From the IMG/VR virus record IMGVR_UViG_3300030102_007804, positions 1-27,741 of that record: a stretch of 27,741 nucleotides of DNA; one strand, 5' to 3'. The DNA is from a virus. Position numbers and translations under genes: made by a program. The first letter of the stretch is position 1. Every line of letters starts with the position of its first letter. This document shows, in pieces, positions 8,479 through 27,741 of this stretch. Below the pieces are notes generated by a model, which was not told the DNA's origin, ran no database searches, and saw nothing but the letters and a program-made list of their open reading frames with translations.

Positions 8479-8520
8479 ATGGCATGCAGGGGGTCAGGAG
8501 TTCGAGTCTCCTTGGCTCCA
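8479..8520 (+). other. attP: attP candidate: 3' half of a tRNA-Ala(GGC)-like gene
   Basis: From 8479 the sequence reads as a tRNA anticodon loop (ATGGCAT, anticodon GGC), the 3' anticodon-stem strand, a 5-base variable loop, a perfect T arm (AGGAG TTCGAGT CTCCT, 8496-8512) and the 3' acceptor strand TGGCTCC plus discriminator A. The 5' half is missing: the bases before the loop do not pair with GCAGG. This is how phage attP sites that integrate into tRNA genes look, and an integrase follows 173 bp downstream. The Ala identity is inferred from the anticodon. Confidence 0.75.
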
Positions 8521-8692: not shown

Positions 8693-9844
8693 ATGCCCAG
8701 TAGACCTGTGGGTAGACCCCCTTCTCTCACCTCTCTCGAAGATCTGAACGCTGGCCTGAATCAGACAGGCGTCAAATTCCGCGTCAGAGCTACAAATCAG
8801 AGCCCTCGCATCCAAATTCGCGCTGTTGAGCGGTTTGAGGATGGATCGAAGGTTCGTTCAGTCGATCTGTACCACGCAAAACCCGGTGATCTCGAAAAAG
8901 CACGGGACCTCTGCCTGCTGTTGCAGAACGAGGACTACCCGTTAAGCACGCTGCTGAAGCACGCACCGAACGGACACCAGATCCAAAGCGATTGGGGCGG
9001 CCTGATCAAGTCCTTCGAGCGTTACCTCAACGAGCAGAACATCAAATGGCAGGACCAGTGCCAGGCCACTCACATTCGCCACTTCCAGCAGTTCACAGGC
9101 CCTGTGAACGCTCACAGGCTGATGGAGTGGGTCGAGGACGCCGAGGCGAACAGTTCCGATCGTGTGCGTCGACTAGGGACGCTGAACAAGTTGATCATCT
9201 GCGCTGAGCTGGATGTTCCCGAGGTCTGGTTGAAGCGCATTAACGCGACAACAAACTTCTCGGCTGTAACCAAAGCCGTTAACCCTCGCGAGCTACCCAA
9301 CGACGAACAGATCGAGGCGTTTGTGGATGCCATCCCCTGTGAAAAGTGGAAGGTGGCTTTTGGCTTCATCGCAACCTACGGATTGCGACCTCACGAGATC
9401 TTCTGCATCAACGGTGTGCCTGACGCCGATGGTCTTCTTGAGGTGAACTCAATGAAGAAAAAGAAAGGCCAGGAGGGATGGCGTTTCGTCATTGCCCGTC
9501 GTACTGACTGGATCGAGCGTTGGAACCTCGTTGAAGGCATTCAGCTTGCTTTCGACGCGAACCATTCGGCCAAGCAACTCGGCAAGCGGGTGAGCACCCA
9601 GTTCGGGCGTTACCGCAAGAAAGGGGACGCACCTGTGTGGCGAGAAGGTGCCAAGGCCTATGACCTGCGTCATGCCTTCGCAGCGGCAGTTCATACAGAG
9701 TCGAAGTTTGAAAAGATCGGTACGGATCAGGCTGCGAGATGGATGGGTCACTCTCGCAAAGTTCATGAGGACACCTACCTGCGTTGGCTGAGCAAAGCTT
9801 CAGCTAAGGAAGCTGCCCGTCGTGTCGCTCTGGGGTTGGCATGA
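8693..9844 (+). CDS. int: Tyrosine site-specific integrase
   Basis: 383 residues. Catalyses integration of phage DNA at the att site. The catalytic domain shows Arg232 in ATYGLRPHEIF, box II as AYDLRHAFA (Arg326, His327; Tyr323 stands where the usual first His would be), His353 in RWMGHS, and the nucleophile Tyr362 in HEDTYLRW, nine residues after the GH. Residues ~95-185 form the core-binding helical domain (WGGLIKSFERYL..). The N-terminus (RPVGRPP) may grip arm-type DNA sites. It lies directly downstream of the tRNA-like attP and terminator and overlaps the next gene by ATGA. Confidence 0.93.
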   Translation: MPSRPVGRPPSLTSLEDLNAGLNQTGVKFRVRATNQSPRIQIRAVERFEDGSKVRSVDLYHAKPGDLEKARDLCLLLQNEDYPLSTLLKHAPNGHQIQSDWGGLIKSFERYLNEQNIKWQDQCQATHIRHFQQFTGPVNAHRLMEWVEDAEANSSDRVRRLGTLNKLIICAELDVPEVWLKRINATTNFSAVTKAVNPRELPNDEQIEAFVDAIPCEKWKVAFGFIATYGLRPHEIFCINGVPDADGLLEVNSMKKKKGQEGWRFVIARRTDWIERWNLVEGIQLAFDANHSAKQLGKRVSTQFGRYRKKGDAPVWREGAKAYDLRHAFAAAVHTESKFEKIGTDQAARWMGHSRKVHEDTYLRWLSKASAKEAARRVALGLA

Positions 9845-17818: not shown

Positions 17819-20602
17819 TCAGGTTGCCCAGAGTTCATCCTCAAAATTGTCGTCGTTTATACCAGATAACTGATCTGAGATAACAGCTTCTTTTATGGGC
17901 TCCCCTAAATTGTGCCCCTGAGGTAAATCCATTGGTACGACTGGATTTGATGGGGGGCACAATTGATCTTGATTTTTTAGCTGTGCCCCCTGCTTTTCGT
18001 GTTGAACAGATTGTTCAACCGCAGGGGGGTACACGTCTTCTTTTTGCCGCTTGGACCCCCTCCCCTGTAAATCGGGTGAGATCTCTTGCGGGGCTTGGGT
18101 TTTGACGGAATCGCTGTACCCCCTCCTTTCTTGCCCTGTAGCCCCTACATCTTCCTGTGATACCAACGCTTCTGAGCAATTAAGAGAAGAAGAAGATGAT
18201 CTCTCCTCCCGCGAGATAGAGCCTTGCATTTGACTTACGTTGCTTAAAAGCTCCATGCCGCCTTCAGTACAGGCGAACCAATAGTTGGTAGGGGAGCCGC
18301 CTTCAGACGGTCCTTCCACGCAGTCGATCAGCCCTCGCGTTCTAAGGCGCTTAAGAGACTGTTTTAGGACAGATGCCTTAGTAGACACGCCAAGGATGGT
18401 TGAGAGGTCTTGACGGGTCGTAGAGGTGCCTTTCGCGGTCATATTTCGGATGTGGCTGTGGATGCGATCGATGGTCGGCACCTTGCCGCTGTATTTCCGC
18501 CGACGCTCGACCTTGGTGAAGTCCTCGACGTCCATCGAGAAGTCTTCGTGCTGACGGGTAATAAAGCGGTCACCCTCACGTCCAATGCGGCTCTTGCCGA
18601 TAGTCAGGACTCGAACCATTTCGGTGTCAGGTCCGAAAGTTCCCTGCTCGCACTCTTGCTCTGTGGGCTTATCCAGGCCCCAGGTTTCAGTCACTGCGTC
18701 ACCAATGCCTGAGTGACCTCGCATTCCATTGCTCTTGTTGTTGTGGTGAAGGATCAGAAAAACGGTTGCAGGGAAGTCGAGCCCGTTGCTGACTTCGAGG
18801 TCGTAAAGCGGTTTACAGACTTCCTGCTTGTTCTGATCGACCCCCGGCATGCAGCCTGCCAATGAGTCGATGACCACAAGTGCGGGACGCTCCAGGGCAA
18901 TGCGCTTGTAAAGACGGCGTGTCCATTGCAGGCGGAATTTGGGCCATGACTTGAAGTTGGGGTGGTCTGCGATGCCATGGCTTTCGAGCTGTGACTCGAA
19001 GATTTCGGGGTTTTGATCACCGTTGCACCACAGCACGGGGCCAGCTTTGACCGGCATCTCTGCCCCTCTGACTTTGAAAGGCGTTCCTTCGAGGACGTGC
19101 TTTGCAAAAGCCATAGCGGTCTGTGACTTGCCTGTGCCGTGCATGCCGTGAAGGATCACGGTCGACGGCGTCAGCAGCACATCAGGGATGACGAAGTTGA
19201 GACCTTTGAGCGTTGCTTTGCGTTGCTCTGCTGTCTGAGGTTCTGCTGCAGTTTGAAAGTCGTGATCCTGCTGCAGGAGCTGGTTGATTTGATCGACACC
19301 GAACCTGACCCGGTGATCGTTGGCCAACTTGGCCATCTCCAGGGCCTGCTCTGCCGGGTTCTCGTATTCAGCGTCAATCCAACGCGCCCACTCCAGCGTC
19401 GTTTTGCTCTTGTCGTAGGTGATGTCGGCATCGCTGATCTTCGTTGTCGCGATGAAGTCCTCTGGGTAGGACTTGCCTAATAAGCCAGCCGCCTCGATCA
19501 GGTAGTTCTCAAGCGTTCTTGCATCGGGCTTGCCTGCCTCGATGTCGCCTGTCCGTAAGGCGTGCAGGAGTTCGATAGCTCCACCCGCCACATCCTCCTT
19601 GTGGCACATCCATCCGAACAGCCCTTTACCGCGTTCATCACCCTCACCTTTGATGTCTGGCCAGAGCGTGAAGGATTTGCCTCCTACAGAACTGTGAAAG
19701 GGGCAGCCACCCACCAACGGCTTATTGGGGTTGCCGTGTTCCCGCTGCAGCGGCTGACGTTCGGCCCGCCATACATCGGCTTTGTAAAGCTGCCAAACCA
19801 GTGAGCCTGGATCCTCTACGTCGCTCTTCTCGACAAGCTCCTGCAGAACAGTGCGTCGAAAGTCCCGTGAAAGCTGGTCATAGTTCTTGTTGCTGAGGGG
19901 ACCGAACTGAGTTGCCAGCTCCTCAGGTAAGTACTGAGTCGTTTCAGGTGTCCTGGCCTCATGGGCCATCAGCCACTGAATCAGGCGTTTTGGGAGGTTC
20001 GCGACCTTGCCATCGTTGTGATCCAGCCACTTGTAAGTGGACTTGGTGTCTGGGTGGTAGCTGCCGGGAAGGACGCTGTAGCAGCCGCCGTACCTAAGAC
20101 AGATCTCGCTGTTTGCCTGCTTCTTCAGGTCTTTGTCGAGCTGGGCTTTTGTGAAGTCAACAAAGAAGTGCTGAAGCCCTGTCGGGATCCGGTAGATGAG
20201 CTGCCTATTGGTCGGCTTGCCTCTCCAGGACATGGTTCCTGGCTTATCGATAGCGGGGTAGTCCTCGCCCATGAAGCCCGCAAAGACCTCTTCAGCGTTC
20301 TCACCGTCGATGTCAACCGCGATCAGACAGCCGTTACCCGGCCCGGTTAAGACACCTAATCCATTTTTGTTTACGTTGCCCCACTTGCCCGTGGTTTTGT
20401 TTTTCTTGCGGGACGTTTGTCCCCATTTGGACAGCACCTCTTCTGGTCTAAGCCCTTTATTGCAGTCGCCGTTGAATTTCTCTAGGTCCGTCTCTTCGCC
20501 TTTCCAAGACGTGAAAGCGGCCTTGTCCTCAACGATGTTGTAGATCCAGTCACTTGGAAATACGCCTTCCCGCAGCAAATCGATTGCCGTTTTGTCGCCC
20601 AT
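17819..20602 (-). CDS. Prim-Pol / RepA-type helicase fusion
   Basis: 927 residues. Predicted replicative primase-helicase. Residues ~80-200 hold LGVLTGPGNGCLIAVDIDG, the bifunctional primase/polymerase style. GGCPFHSSVGGKSF..GWMCHKED (~298-337) looks like a zinc-binding insert. A RecA-like ATPase follows: Walker A GMHGTGKS (486-493), Walker B ALVVIDS (574-580), then LILHHNNKSNGMRGHSGIGDAV as in RepA/DnaB-like helicases. RQDLSTILGVS..LKRLRTRGLI is a winged helix near residue 760. The last ~140 residues are low-complexity, ending in an acidic NDDNFEDELWAT tail that might bind partner proteins. AAGG lies 5 bp before the ATG. Confidence 0.85.
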   Translation of the reverse strand: MGDKTAIDLLREGVFPSDWIYNIVEDKAAFTSWKGEETDLEKFNGDCNKGLRPEEVLSKWGQTSRKKNKTTGKWGNVNKNGLGVLTGPGNGCLIAVDIDGENAEEVFAGFMGEDYPAIDKPGTMSWRGKPTNRQLIYRIPTGLQHFFVDFTKAQLDKDLKKQANSEICLRYGGCYSVLPGSYHPDTKSTYKWLDHNDGKVANLPKRLIQWLMAHEARTPETTQYLPEELATQFGPLSNKNYDQLSRDFRRTVLQELVEKSDVEDPGSLVWQLYKADVWRAERQPLQREHGNPNKPLVGGCPFHSSVGGKSFTLWPDIKGEGDERGKGLFGWMCHKEDVAGGAIELLHALRTGDIEAGKPDARTLENYLIEAAGLLGKSYPEDFIATTKISDADITYDKSKTTLEWARWIDAEYENPAEQALEMAKLANDHRVRFGVDQINQLLQQDHDFQTAAEPQTAEQRKATLKGLNFVIPDVLLTPSTVILHGMHGTGKSQTAMAFAKHVLEGTPFKVRGAEMPVKAGPVLWCNGDQNPEIFESQLESHGIADHPNFKSWPKFRLQWTRRLYKRIALERPALVVIDSLAGCMPGVDQNKQEVCKPLYDLEVSNGLDFPATVFLILHHNNKSNGMRGHSGIGDAVTETWGLDKPTEQECEQGTFGPDTEMVRVLTIGKSRIGREGDRFITRQHEDFSMDVEDFTKVERRRKYSGKVPTIDRIHSHIRNMTAKGTSTTRQDLSTILGVSTKASVLKQSLKRLRTRGLIDCVEGPSEGGSPTNYWFACTEGGMELLSNVSQMQGSISREERSSSSSLNCSEALVSQEDVGATGQERRGYSDSVKTQAPQEISPDLQGRGSKRQKEDVYPPAVEQSVQHEKQGAQLKNQDQLCPPSNPVVPMDLPQGHNLGEPIKEAVISDQLSGINDDNFEDELWAT

Positions 20603-20832: not shown

Positions 20833-21555
20833 ATGGAAATTTCCGGTCAAAAATTTGGTGCAGCGGACATCGAGGAACGTTTTGAGCAGGGGGCAGTCAC
20901 CTTTGCTCGATGGTTCGCAAAACTCATGGATGCCAATGGGTGGTCCCATCCAAAGCTGGTTGAGTTAGCAAAGGTCGCTACGGACGGGAAGTCCTGGGTC
21001 CACTCCAGCCAGATCGCAAGCCTCAGAATCGGCAAGCTTAAAAGTCCTGGACCTCGCTCTTTCGCCACCCTTTCTTATCTGTGGAGCGAGATCGACGCAT
21101 ATCAGAACCAAGCTCAAGACGAGCATTCCCCAGACTTTTCAAAGCAGGACAAATTCATCAAGAACGCACAGGTGATGCGTGATGACGATGGCAACCCTGC
21201 TTCCATCGGTTACATGTTCGAGGTTTTTTGCGGATGGAGGGAGCCGCCTCAAGGCACTACACAGCGCGACTTCACCGAAGAACAGGCAGCTTTAGTTAGC
21301 GAAAACGCTGGAAAGTACGTGCGACGTCTGGTCACTGCCGATCGCATGGATCTGATCGAATCAATGCCTCGGATGCTCAGGAGTTACTCAAACGACAAAA
21401 TTGAGCAGGGTCTTTTTAAGAGTGTGATTTTGGGCGAAGGTGTTTGGACAAACGAAGAACTCGACCATAGTGTTACTTGCCTCTCGCATATGCTTACAAA
21501 AGTATTCAAAACAGAGCGCAAACCTGAAGAGTTGATGAACGATCTGCTTAAATGA
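20833..21555 (+). CDS. HTH-like DNA-binding protein, candidate lysogeny regulator
   Basis: 240 residues. Residues ~20-90 (FARWFAKLMDANGWSHPKLVELAK..VHSSQIASLRIGKLKSPGPRSF) read as a helix-turn-helix of an XRE-like kind, with a recognition helix around SSQIASLRIGKL. The rest is helical (EEQAALVSENAGKYVRRLVTAD, then LDHSVTCLSHMLTKVF) and may dimerise. No LexA-like Ser/Lys protease pair is evident. It is divergent from the primase and directly before a promoter-operator, which is where a phage repressor or early regulator would sit. Role inferred. Confidence 0.6.
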   Translation: MEISGQKFGAADIEERFEQGAVTFARWFAKLMDANGWSHPKLVELAKVATDGKSWVHSSQIASLRIGKLKSPGPRSFATLSYLWSEIDAYQNQAQDEHSPDFSKQDKFIKNAQVMRDDDGNPASIGYMFEVFCGWREPPQGTTQRDFTEEQAALVSENAGKYVRRLVTADRMDLIESMPRMLRSYSNDKIEQGLFKSVILGEGVWTNEELDHSVTCLSHMLTKVFKTERKPEELMNDLLK

Positions 21556-24506: not shown

Positions 24507-25001
24507 ATGCTGAGAGCGCAATCGCCCAACGATTTGCTGTTCAATCTCACATCATTAAGGCGAAAAGATGCGGTAAAGAGCTTTAGACGAGCGATTATTG
24601 ACGAGTATCCCACCAGGGGCTGCGCCTATTGCGGGCGATCCATGCGGAACTGGACGCTCGATCACATCATCCCCAAGTCAAAAGGGGGACCCACAAGGCG
24701 GTGGAATCTGGCGAAATGTTGCTCACGTTGTAATGGCAACAAAGGTTCTATGGATGTTCTTCCCTGGTATCGACCGCAATTGTTTTGGGACGAGTTCTTA
24801 GAAGATACATTGTTTGAATGGATGCGGTCTAATGCAAACATGGATGACGCCATGAATGCTTTGGAGCAGTCACTACGTGAAGGCACTCTTGATAAAGAGG
24901 CCCTGGAAGATCTCAAGCAGAAACCTGAAAAACGAAGTTTCTGGGACACCTATTGCGATGCCAATCCTTGGGAAAAAGAGTGTTTGATCTATGAGTGCTG
25001 A
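24507..25001 (+). CDS. HNH endonuclease
   Basis: 164 residues. CAYC (Cys39, Cys42), TLDHIIPKSKGGPTRRWNLAKCCSRCNGNKG with Asp52-His53, Asn67 and Cys72/Cys75 make a zinc-braced beta-beta-alpha HNH fold. The C-terminal half is helical and acidic and not recognised. As the last gene of the recombination operon it could be a free-standing homing nuclease, a packaging partner or a defence nuclease; its neighbours do not settle which. It meets a convergent gene with no gap. Confidence 0.85.
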   Translation: MLRAQSPNDLLFNLTSLRRKDAVKSFRRAIIDEYPTRGCAYCGRSMRNWTLDHIIPKSKGGPTRRWNLAKCCSRCNGNKGSMDVLPWYRPQLFWDEFLEDTLFEWMRSNANMDDAMNALEQSLREGTLDKEALEDLKQKPEKRSFWDTYCDANPWEKECLIYEC

Positions 25002-25439
25002 TTAGGCCAGAAGAGGTGGCCTGATCGCGTCCCCTTTTGGCAGCTCAGGCAGGATGTCGAGGCGTCGGCGATTTTTTGCGCCTTTCAACTCCAGCATCCA
25101 ATCCTGCACGGCGTTCAGGTTTTCGCAACTGTCGTCCAGGGTGCAAAGCACATCCAGTAGCGGGCAGCGCTCTGGATAACGCCACCTGTAGCGTTCGAGC
25201 ATTTCAACAGTCAACGGTTTCCACCCGAAAACAAGTAGTTGCACGTCGTCTAGGTCATCAACGTGCATACCGACTTTTTTCAAGCCGTCTTCGACTTTGG
25301 CCCACATTTGAGTAGGTGTCAGTCCGTGTTTTGTAGCGATGTGTCTGAACCCCTCCTTTGCGCCTTCTACGAAGAAATCGCTTTCTTTCTGGCTGAGGGT
25401 TTTGGCTAATTGCTTGCGAGGCTTGGAGCCATTGGACAT
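25002..25439 (-). CDS. Hypothetical protein, paralogue A of tandem pair
   Basis: 145 residues from ATG 25439, 10 bp after the stop of paralogue B; a frame extension to 25583 is mostly shadow. Core: FVEGAKEGFRHIATKHGLTP, MWAKVEDGLKKVG, DDLDDVQLLVFGWKPLT, RYPERCPLLDVLCTLDDSCENLNAVQDWMLE. It is clearly homologous to the gene at 25450-26052. No known family or catalytic motif is recognised. The convergent junction with HNH holds an AGGCCA/TGGCCT hairpin at 25004-25022. Confidence 0.55.
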   Translation of the reverse strand: MSNGSKPRKQLAKTLSQKESDFFVEGAKEGFRHIATKHGLTPTQMWAKVEDGLKKVGMHVDDLDDVQLLVFGWKPLTVEMLERYRWRYPERCPLLDVLCTLDDSCENLNAVQDWMLELKGAKNRRRLDILPELPKGDAIRPPLLA

Positions 25440-25449
25440 TGGAGGCAGA

Positions 25450-26052
25450 TCAGATTGGTGTGAATGTTGTGGTCGGTGTACCTGAAGGTCTGACGCCATC
25501 AGGATCTGGCAAAACAGGCAGGACGTCGTTTCTTGTGCGTCCATAGCTGTTTTTTCTATCCAGCAACCAGTCCTGAACTTCATTCAGGTCGGGGCAGGTG
25601 TGATCGAGCGAGCAAAGCACGTCCAGCAATGGGCAGCGCTTGGGGTAACGGATTGCCCAGCGGTGCATGGCTTCTGGAGTGAGGTCGAGCCATCCGAAGC
25701 AGTAGTGCTGAAGATTTTCGAGGTCGTCGTGATGAATCCCGAGCTGCTTCATGCCCCTTTCGACGATTGCCCACATCTCCACGGGGTTTAAACCGTGTCT
25801 TTGTGCGATGTATTGGAAACCGCCTCTTGCCCCACGATTGAAGTACGCGATGTCTTCAGGCGTCATCAAGCAACCGTGACAAGAACAGTTGTTCGATGAG
25901 GAGACGGCCTTAATGAAAGCCTGGACTTCAAAGGCACGCCACCAGGGCTGTGCAATCGCTGCATCCACTAGCCCGGAAACCGCGTCCAGGTCGCTGTCTC
26001 TATGAGCTGAGTACCCATACATTCTCTTGTGGTTTGAATGGTGAGCAGTCAT
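25450..26052 (-). CDS. Hypothetical protein, paralogue B of tandem pair
   Basis: 200 residues. It shares with paralogue A the core FNRGARGGFQYIAQRHGLNP, MWAIVERGMKQLG, DDLENLQHYCFGWLDLT, IRYPKRCPLLDVLCSLDHTCPDLNEVQDWLLD. It adds an N-terminal ~75-residue part with ACxxC-like NNCSCHGC, perhaps metal-binding. ATG 26052 is used; ATG 26022 with AAGAGA in front is an alternative. Function unknown. Being next to the iteron block makes an origin-linked role worth testing, but there is no direct sign of DNA binding. Confidence 0.6.
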   Translation of the reverse strand: MTAHHSNHKRMYGYSAHRDSDLDAVSGLVDAAIAQPWWRAFEVQAFIKAVSSSNNCSCHGCLMTPEDIAYFNRGARGGFQYIAQRHGLNPVEMWAIVERGMKQLGIHHDDLENLQHYCFGWLDLTPEAMHRWAIRYPKRCPLLDVLCSLDHTCPDLNEVQDWLLDRKNSYGRTRNDVLPVLPDPDGVRPSGTPTTTFTPI

Positions 26053-26208
26053 GAGTTGAGACGAAGGGTGAGCGATTTGCGATTGCTTGATCTTTCTAGG
26101 ACAGCGAGCAACCAGGATCTGTGGCCTGAACTACAAACTTAATGTCCAGAAGAGGATTATTGCATGCGTCTGTATCAGGACGTACACATTTCCGATTTCT
26201 TTAGGCCT
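26053..26208. other. Gap before the iteron block
   Basis: No gene is supported. It is the upstream region of the leftward paralogue pair; no strong promoter is visible. Confidence 0.4.
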
Positions 26209-26349
26209 GGGATCTCGCGGCACCCCTGGGATCTTGAGGGGTTGCTGGGATCTCGACGACCCCCTAGGATCTCGTTACACCCCTAGGATCTCGCGGCACC
26301 CCTAGGATCTCGTCGACCCCTAGGATCTCGTGGCCCCCCTAGGATCTCG
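26209..26349 (+). repeat. Eight iterons with GGATCTCG core
   Basis: Cores start at 26209, 26229, 26248, 26267, 26286, 26305, 26323 and 26342, giving spacings of 20, 19, 19, 19, 19, 18 and 19 bp. Seven are exact GGATCTCG; the second is GGATCTTG. The first three follow CTG, and the last five follow CCCTA (CCTAGGATCTCG). A ninth exact copy is inverted at 26910-26917. Regular direct repeats next to AT-rich DNA are typical of replication origins with initiator-binding iterons. Confidence 0.85.
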
Positions 26350-26391
26350 TGACGATCTCAAAAATCCATCCGAACGAGAACATGTATAAAA

Positions 26392-26538
26392 TGTTTTAAG
26401 TATAAAATTATACAAGTATAAATTCATACACATTCAAGTATCAAATAATACGCATCAAAATATACACTCAAATGTTACAAGTAACAAATGCTACACAGCA
26501 TCAAATGCTACAAGTAGCAAAAGCTACACAACATTTAG
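26392..26538. repeat. Degenerate array of TACAAGTA dyads
   Basis: Clear 14-bp dyads are TTATACAAGTATAA (26408-26421), TGTTACAAGTAACA (26473-26486) and TGCTACAAGTAGCA (26506-26519); weaker copies start at 26392 and near 26430. The last two belong to a 33-bp tandem repeat (26473-26505, 26506-26538), in which T-to-C and A-to-G changes on opposite arms keep the dyad intact. GCTACACA recurs at 26490 and 26523. Confidence 0.75.
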
Positions 26539-26539
26539 C

Positions 26540-26670
26540 GCCGCTTTTTAGCGCGAGTTTTTGACTTTTAAGGTTTCACAAGTAAGAAATTTTTTAGTTT
26601 GAAAAATTGCAGAGAGAAAAAATTTTTCCGCTGCATTTTTACAACTCAAAAAATTTTATTTTGACCCCGG
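26540..26670. other. A-tract-rich region, possible unwinding element
   Basis: No gene. TTTAGCGC occurs twice (around 26534 and 26548). From about 26585 to 26660 the DNA is dominated by A- and T-tracts (ATTTTTTAG, GAAAAATTG, GAAAAAATTTTTCC, CAAAAAATTTTATTTTG), giving very low melting energy and likely curvature, beside the two repeat arrays. Confidence 0.5.
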
Positions 26671-26687
26671 CACAACTTGACACAAGA

Positions 26688-26708
26688 AAACCACCCCCGA
26701 GGGGGTGG
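26688..26708 (-). terminator. Terminator of the 26714-26872 gene
   Basis: Read on the minus strand, CCACCCCC, a 2-base loop and GGGGGTGG form a perfect 8-bp stem followed by TTTTCTTG, 6-8 bp after the stop codon. A clear rho-independent terminator. Confidence 0.75.
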
Positions 26709-26713
26709 CTGTC

Positions 26714-27366: not shown

Positions 27367-27741
27367 ATGGCCCGCTCTCAAGGCTCAACCCCTAAGGGGA
27401 TAATTCTGCAGCGTGGCGAGTCGCCCCTAGACGGCTCCCCCTTTGTTGTCATCCTGACCACCAAAAGCGGCAACCGGAAGACCGGCGACATGTGCCAAGT
27501 CTGGATCCTTCGCGAGGATCAGAACCCCGTCGAAGCGATCGCCACCGGGGCAGACTTCACAGTCTGCGGAGACTGCCCACATAGAAAGCAGGCGGACGGA
27601 TCGCGGTCCTGTTACGTCAACGTGGGCCAGGCCCCTCTCAGCGTTTGGAAGACATACAAGCGCGGCGGATACGTTGACAGCCCCTCGGCTGAGCTGCTGG
27701 CCCGTGTTCTAAAAGGCCGCCGCATCCGGTGGGGAGCCTAC
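27367..27741 (+). CDS. Conserved phage protein with CGDCPHR..CYVNVGQAP motif, partial
   Basis: 125 codons are visible and the frame runs off the window end. TGDMCQVWILREDQNPVEAI, ADFTVCGDCPHR, SCYVNVGQAPLSVWKTYKRG is a pattern I recall from conserved hypothetical proteins of diverse phages. The Cys pair in VCGDC plus a later Cys suggests metal binding, but no activity is known to me. The start has no Shine-Dalgarno but a 60-bp CT-rich leader with CCTTCTCTCACC at 27348-27359. GC content is about 60% here. Confidence 0.75.
   Translation, partial: MARSQGSTPKGIILQRGESPLDGSPFVVILTTKSGNRKTGDMCQVWILREDQNPVEAIATGADFTVCGDCPHRKQADGSRSCYVNVGQAPLSVWKTYKRGGYVDSPSAELLARVLKGRRIRWGAY

Follow-up and report, generated by a model that had tools for sequence, protein, structure and literature searches.

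The DNA analysed here, hereafter the window, is a complete IMG/VR entry consisting of a linear fragment of 27,741 bases. It contains an array of short direct repeats (iterons) that forms one half of a two-part element, the other half being the AT-rich repeats that adjoin it. Judged from its sequence, this element is probably a replication origin of the phage, of the type in which iterons lie next to a melting region. The element and its right boundary are made up of the following features:

26206–26351, plus strand: direct-repeat (iteron) array, eight copies of the consensus CYTRGGATCTYGA, period 19 with one step of 18
26357–26540, no strand: AT-rich putative DNA-unwinding element; the 150-bp segment with the lowest duplex stability in the contig begins here, at 26376
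26400–26527, no strand: seven 14-bp near-palindromes GYA-N8-TAC, starting at 26400, 26416, 26438, 26452, 26481, 26498 and 26514
26415–26444, minus strand: sigma-70-like promoter match TTGATA-18-TATACT, reading leftwards across the array towards genes B and A
26689–26710, minus strand: GC-rich hairpin with a T-run, terminator-like, at the right boundary of the element

TRF delimits the array at 26206–26351 (period 19, 7.7 copies) and ranks it as the top-scoring array in the window. Its eight GGATCTYG cores span positions 26210–26349 and start at 26210, 26229, 26248, 26267, 26286, 26305, 26323 and 26342. An earlier, sequence-only reading had described seven exact cores and a single-base variant, with a change of flank after the third copy, and both points are borne out: the variant is GGATCTTG at 26229, and the 5' flank is CTG for copies 1–3 and CCCTA for copies 4–8. 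The spacing is regular, as that reading held, over a narrower range than the 18–20 bp it gave, the core-to-core steps being 19, 19, 19, 19, 19, 18 and 19. It had also judged the array too regular for chance, and rightly so: in 60 first-order Markov sequences derived from the window, the longest chain of similar 8-mers spaced 15–24 bp had four members (mean 2.35), compared to eight in the window. Nor does the array appear to be coding, again in agreement with that reading, since its period is not divisible by 3 and the sole listed forward open reading frame over it (26087–26305, 72 aa, TTG start) stops within the repeats.

The sequence-only reading correctly placed the array before AT-rich DNA but missed that this DNA is itself an ordered array of repeats. 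Its seven near-palindromes are, in order, GTATAAAATTATAC, GTATAAATTCATAC, GTATCAAATAATAC, GCATCAAAATATAC, GTAACAAATGCTAC, GCATCAAATGCTAC and GTAGCAAAAGCTAC, whereas 2000 shuffles of the same stretch gave 0.41 on average and four at most. The AT-rich half also holds the duplex stability minimum of the whole contig (26376, z = 4.3, nearest-neighbour energies in 150-bp windows).

Two other virus contigs, G005 and G001, carry both halves too, arranged and oriented as in the window. Most of the window is in synteny with G005 (31,522 bases), whose proteins are typically 50–75% identical to those of the window (about 60%) and which carries nine cores and an AT-rich block beside the same A/B genes, with a similar hairpin at the same place relative to the element. 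G001 (16,646 bases) has no protein detectably in common with the window or G005. The array opens this contig, with seven cores at 17-bp steps (19 bp for the last), and is followed by the least stable DNA with its 14-mers, by small genes, by the terminase and then by the portal and capsid genes. In all three contigs alike, the least stable 150 bp fall in the AT-rich part, and the 14-mers number 7, 8 and 7 in the three (shuffle means 0.3–0.4, maxima 3–4, 2000 shuffles). The steps range from 18 to 25 bp in G005 and from 17 to 25 bp over the three arrays, and the spacers vary in sequence as well as in length. The core, by contrast, is invariant: every one of the 24 copies has GGATCT and the terminal G, with C or T at the position in between. 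Such conservation despite varying spacers argues for the cores being selected protein-binding sites. In the window and G005, the copies that deviate from the commonest form sit at the end of the array far from the AT-rich part. Finally, when the window and G005 were compared over 900 bp, the main alignment covered window positions 26207–26513 (72% over 321 columns), and nothing comparable aligned in the intergenic DNA outside the element.

The sequence-only reading had found no recognised Rep protein in the window. This is not supported, as the window encodes a protein with domains that make it a candidate replication initiator, along with other candidate binders of the array:

17819–20602, minus strand: 927-aa primase-helicase with Prim-Pol, AAA_25 and a C-terminal winged helix, candidate replication initiator
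20833–21555, plus strand: 240-aa protein that looks HTH-like by eye, its gene running divergently from that of the primase-helicase; conserved in G005 and in a further relative, G407
25002–25583, minus strand: paralogue A, 193 aa by its first start codon, candidate array binder
25450–26052, minus strand: paralogue B, 200 aa, encoded by the gene nearest the array on its left, candidate array binder

The 927-aa protein matches Prim-Pol at its N-terminus (PF09250, 46.6 bits, cut-off 22.8) and AAA_25, a predicted helicase/ATPase, in its centre (PF13481, 49.8 bits, cut-off 27). Its C-terminal part was aligned with relatives from Cyanobiaceae genomes before being modelled. The resulting winged-helix model has a pLDDT of 78, and the PDB structures closest to it in fold are winged-helix proteins (probability about 1.0, best E 2.3e-3); a profile of the same region matches 2d1h (E 2.6e-4). 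The domain architecture is that of the pRN1 replication protein, and that of P4 alpha with another primase. Paralogue B is predicted to be all-helical with an HTH-like stretch, its core being modelled with moderate confidence, and has no match in Pfam, PHROG or PDB folds. It contains a C-x-C-x-x-C motif, a possible metal site, which is kept in G005 but present neither in A nor in the one homologue of G407. The conserved part of paralogue A is its last 130 or so residues. The only profile match of A/B, to a 20-residue piece of TAL repeats, was short and was judged spurious. The 240-aa protein is a possible regulator or accessory binder. The iterons would be bound either by the winged helix of the primase-helicase or by A/B, the evidence favouring neither. 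The number of A/B paralogues, which is two in the window and in G005, both of which carry the array, and one in G407, weakly suggests a link between these proteins and the array. The winged helix of G407, on the other hand, is nearer to that of the window (55% identity) than is that of G005 (39%), which argues mildly against this domain being the core reader.

The earlier reading had left the choice between an origin, a partition site and a packaging signal. An origin is the best supported of the three, given the combination of iterons with the least stable DNA and its conservation in two further contigs. The computed part of the case comprises the repeats, their conservation as a block with the AT-rich DNA, the stability minimum and the primase-helicase domains. 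The inferred part would run as follows: a phage initiator would bind the eight iterons as an ordered oligomer and distort the DNA, and the adjoining AT-rich repeats would open under the strain; the Prim-Pol/AAA protein would then be loaded at the opened stretch, or act on it, as helicase and primase, replication would start there, and the phage family-A polymerase PolA would extend. We favour this reading because the eight-copy array is regular far beyond chance, because the array and the AT-rich block are conserved together in G005 and G001, and because the AT-rich part, least stable in each of the three contigs, holds non-random 14-mers. The genome moreover has a replication set of its own, in which PolA, a class II RNR and ThyX accompany the Prim-Pol/AAA protein. 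Precedents point the same way: iterons beside an AT-rich opening region are a common plan, found in lambda and in plasmid origins, P4 alpha binds origin repeats through its winged helix, and the pRN1 protein also ends in one (PMC5043065; PMC4234260).

The likeness to known systems is partial in each case. Theta plasmids such as P1, F, RK2, R6K and pSC101 share the arrangement of several direct repeats adjoining an AT-rich opening region, and in RK2 repeats also lie inside that region, as they do here (PMC5043065). They differ from the phage element in that the latter has no good DnaA box, steps of 17–19 bp that are out of helical phase, no plasmid-type Rep among the proteins scanned, and a distance of about 5.6 kb between the array and the primase-helicase gene. 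The lambda origin is likewise a phage origin in which initiator repeats are flanked by an AT-rich stretch, and transcription through the repeats is possible in the window too. However, lambda iterons are inverted repeats that bind O dimers (PMC5043065), whereas those of the window are asymmetric direct repeats that do not lie within an initiator gene, and no O/P-like proteins were found in the window. P4 alpha, which acts at repeats, combines primase, helicase and winged-helix parts in one protein, as here, but its primase is of the Toprim type (PMC4234260); the phage protein has Prim-Pol and an AAA_25 (RecA-like) motor, and is a candidate binder of the repeats. ORF904 of pRN1 resembles the phage protein in having Prim-Pol, helicase and C-terminal winged helix in a single chain, but the pRN1 origin has a stem-loop and no iterons (PMC4234260).

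Several observations weaken the case for an origin. G407 (24,045 bases) is syntenic with the window and as close to it as G005 is (Prim-Pol 62% and PolA 66% identical), yet the array was not found in its incomplete 24-kb contig, including 2.5 kb past the single A/B gene. Absence from close relatives had been named as a refutation of the earlier reading; with the array present in G005 and G001, it is half borne out. In this contig, several copies of another repeat (CAACTTAAA...) lie upstream of small genes at the place where the array would be expected (L350, 1400–2500). The likeness of the winged helices runs the wrong way for the domain to be the array reader, as described above. Prim-Pol relatives in Cyanobiaceae genomes had no array within the roughly 6–20 kb read around each. 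Other weak points are the DnaA boxes, the helical phase and the GC skew. Near the array, we found only one-mismatch matches to TTWTNCACA and none to TTTTCCACA; DnaA boxes are common in plasmid origins without being universal. A 19-bp step rotates by about 291 degrees and a 17-bp step by about 223 degrees, neither of which amounts to whole helical turns; plasmid iterons are usually in phase with the DNA helix, although phase is not a strict requirement. A GC-skew signal at the array had been suggested as a check, but no clear switch was seen there: to the left of the array the skew is positive, and immediately to its right it is negative, as it also is over the first 2 kb of G001, before it becomes positive again.

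The strongest structural rival is a packaging or terminus site (cos or pac), in which the small terminase would bind the repeats and the genome ends would lie in or beside the element; it is the strongest because two of the three contigs that carry the element end near it. Indeed, G001 starts 15 bp before its first core, G005 ends about 220 bp past its last core, just beyond the hairpin, and the G001 layout, from the element through small genes to terminase, portal and capsid, would suit a left genome end. However, the terminase genes of G001 lie some 6.5–8.3 kb from the element, the window contig continues for 1.4 kb beyond it, tandem repeats break assemblies where there is no biological end, and a packaging site has no need of the least stable DNA alongside. 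On balance we think it unlikely that the element serves for packaging.

Of similarly low probability, in our view, is an operator or partition-like array, where a regulator (B/A or the 240-aa protein) would bind the repeats so as to control transcription of the B–A operon on the left and of the genes on the right, or else to hold the genome or keep it silent, without starting replication. The position of the array, 158–297 bp upstream of gene B, speaks for such a role, as do the coincidence of two paralogues with an array beside the gene in two phages (against a single one in G407, where none was found), the leftward promoter-like match inside the AT-rich part and the resemblance of the 14-mers to operator sites for dimers. 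Promoter-like matches are, however, at chance level (2 found, 1.5 expected), and a simple operator could do with less than eight regular copies and a 150-bp stability minimum. As to partition, no ParA/ParB-like or TubZR protein was detected among the approximately 20 window proteins scanned against Pfam, the contig being incomplete. Last, a neutral minisatellite, in which slippage would have multiplied a 19-bp repeat that no protein binds, would explain why copies within an array are very alike and why copy number and period differ between contigs, but is very improbable in view of the core that stays invariant over three divergent contigs while the spacers change, of the same kind of AT-rich repeat region always lying beside the array, and of the core patterns in viral_contigs otherwise giving coding repeats or unrelated tandem arrays.

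If the origin reading holds, the palindromes in the melting region raise the question of whether a host nutrient regulator gates phage replication. NtcA, the nitrogen regulator, is to our knowledge present in all cyanobacteria and has the consensus GTA-N8-TAC. The AT-rich palindromes match this consensus: five of the seven in the window fit it exactly, all within the 128 bp from 26400 to 26527 (shuffle mean 0.08, maximum 2), where the expectation for the whole contig is about 2. G005 has five exact matches and G001 one, most of its sites following the relaxed form GT-N10-AC. In a ChIP study, GT-N10-AC was strongly conserved over all NtcA sites, with T4, C5, A10 and A11 somewhat conserved in the top sites (PMC3898017); the site at 26438, GTATCAAATAATAC, fits GTA-N8-TAC along with these four preferences. 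T4-like cyanophages have 1–16 predicted NtcA sites per genome (PMC3037559). The sites found here are tandem and lie inside a putative melting region, unlike single promoter sites, and no description of such clustering was found in the literature searched. A role for NtcA is speculative, and the palindromes may instead serve another dimeric protein, or only as melting repeats. It is a rather doubtful prospect that the origin takes two proteins, the iterons recruiting the phage initiator and NtcA binding the palindromes, so that firing, or the choice between lysogeny and replication, would be tied to the 2-oxoglutarate/nitrogen state.

With regard to the lifestyle of the phage, a 383-aa protein encoded at 8693–9844 looks by eye like a tyrosine recombinase; it shows distant similarity to proteins in cyanobacterial contigs and had no worthwhile match in Pfam, PHROG or NCBIfam. 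Just upstream of its gene, positions 8493–8520 reproduce exactly, over 28 bp, the 3' end of a host tRNA-Ala(GGC) gene, and would probably be attP. This 3'-end sequence occurs in 34 of 151 Cyanobiaceae genomes, a few of which carry it two or three times over a span of tens of kb. The recombinase-like gene and the copy of the host tRNA end together support the window being a temperate phage of Cyanobiaceae (picocyanobacteria). A Cyanobiaceae contig, G195:C36 (L357, L265 and L358), probably carries a prophage or island, with a Prim-Pol relative, a class II RNR, an integrase-like gene and a portal within about 26 kb; it has neither the array nor an AT-rich repeat region. Its RNR is 61% identical to that of the window and its portal 40% identical to that of G001. 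Since this contig joins window-like Prim-Pol and RNR with a G001-like portal, we infer that G001 may come from a phage of the window's own group and make up its structural half.

Wider searches returned little beyond these contigs. Beyond three two-copy matches, no array was found in 400 Cyanobiaceae genomes; plasmids gave no match to the element, phages none longer than 28 bp (E 0.6), and an RNA family search gave nothing near the gathering score. Looser core patterns in viral_contigs and genome_contigs returned mostly period-18 coding repeats or unrelated tandem repeats. Among the individual candidates set aside, L003 and L005 resemble coding repeats, the five copies in L004 lie at a contig end and have different flanks, and L331, found by the AT-rich 14-mer pattern, has similar palindromes but no iterons and other genes. 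We also dropped the idea of HLR1 sites, which are TTACA direct repeats, because TACA recurs every 15–17 bp.

Should the origin reading be right, the element would be a specific replication origin for little-known temperate phages of picocyanobacteria, and would combine iterons with an initiator of the Prim-Pol/winged-helix kind; pRN1 has this type of protein but no iterons, and P4 has repeats but another primase. The construction of shuttle vectors for Synechococcus and Cyanobium would benefit from a defined origin as well.

Two further open reading frames deserve mention. At 24507–25001, an HNH endonuclease frame is recognised at its C-terminus by the CP12 profile PF02672 (23.7 bits, cut-off 22.7); CP12 is a Calvin-cycle regulator that is present in some cyanophages. 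At 27367–27741, a truncated frame matches part of phrog_2554 (unknown function), and Klebsiella, Cronobacter and other phages have relatives that are about 50% identical to it.
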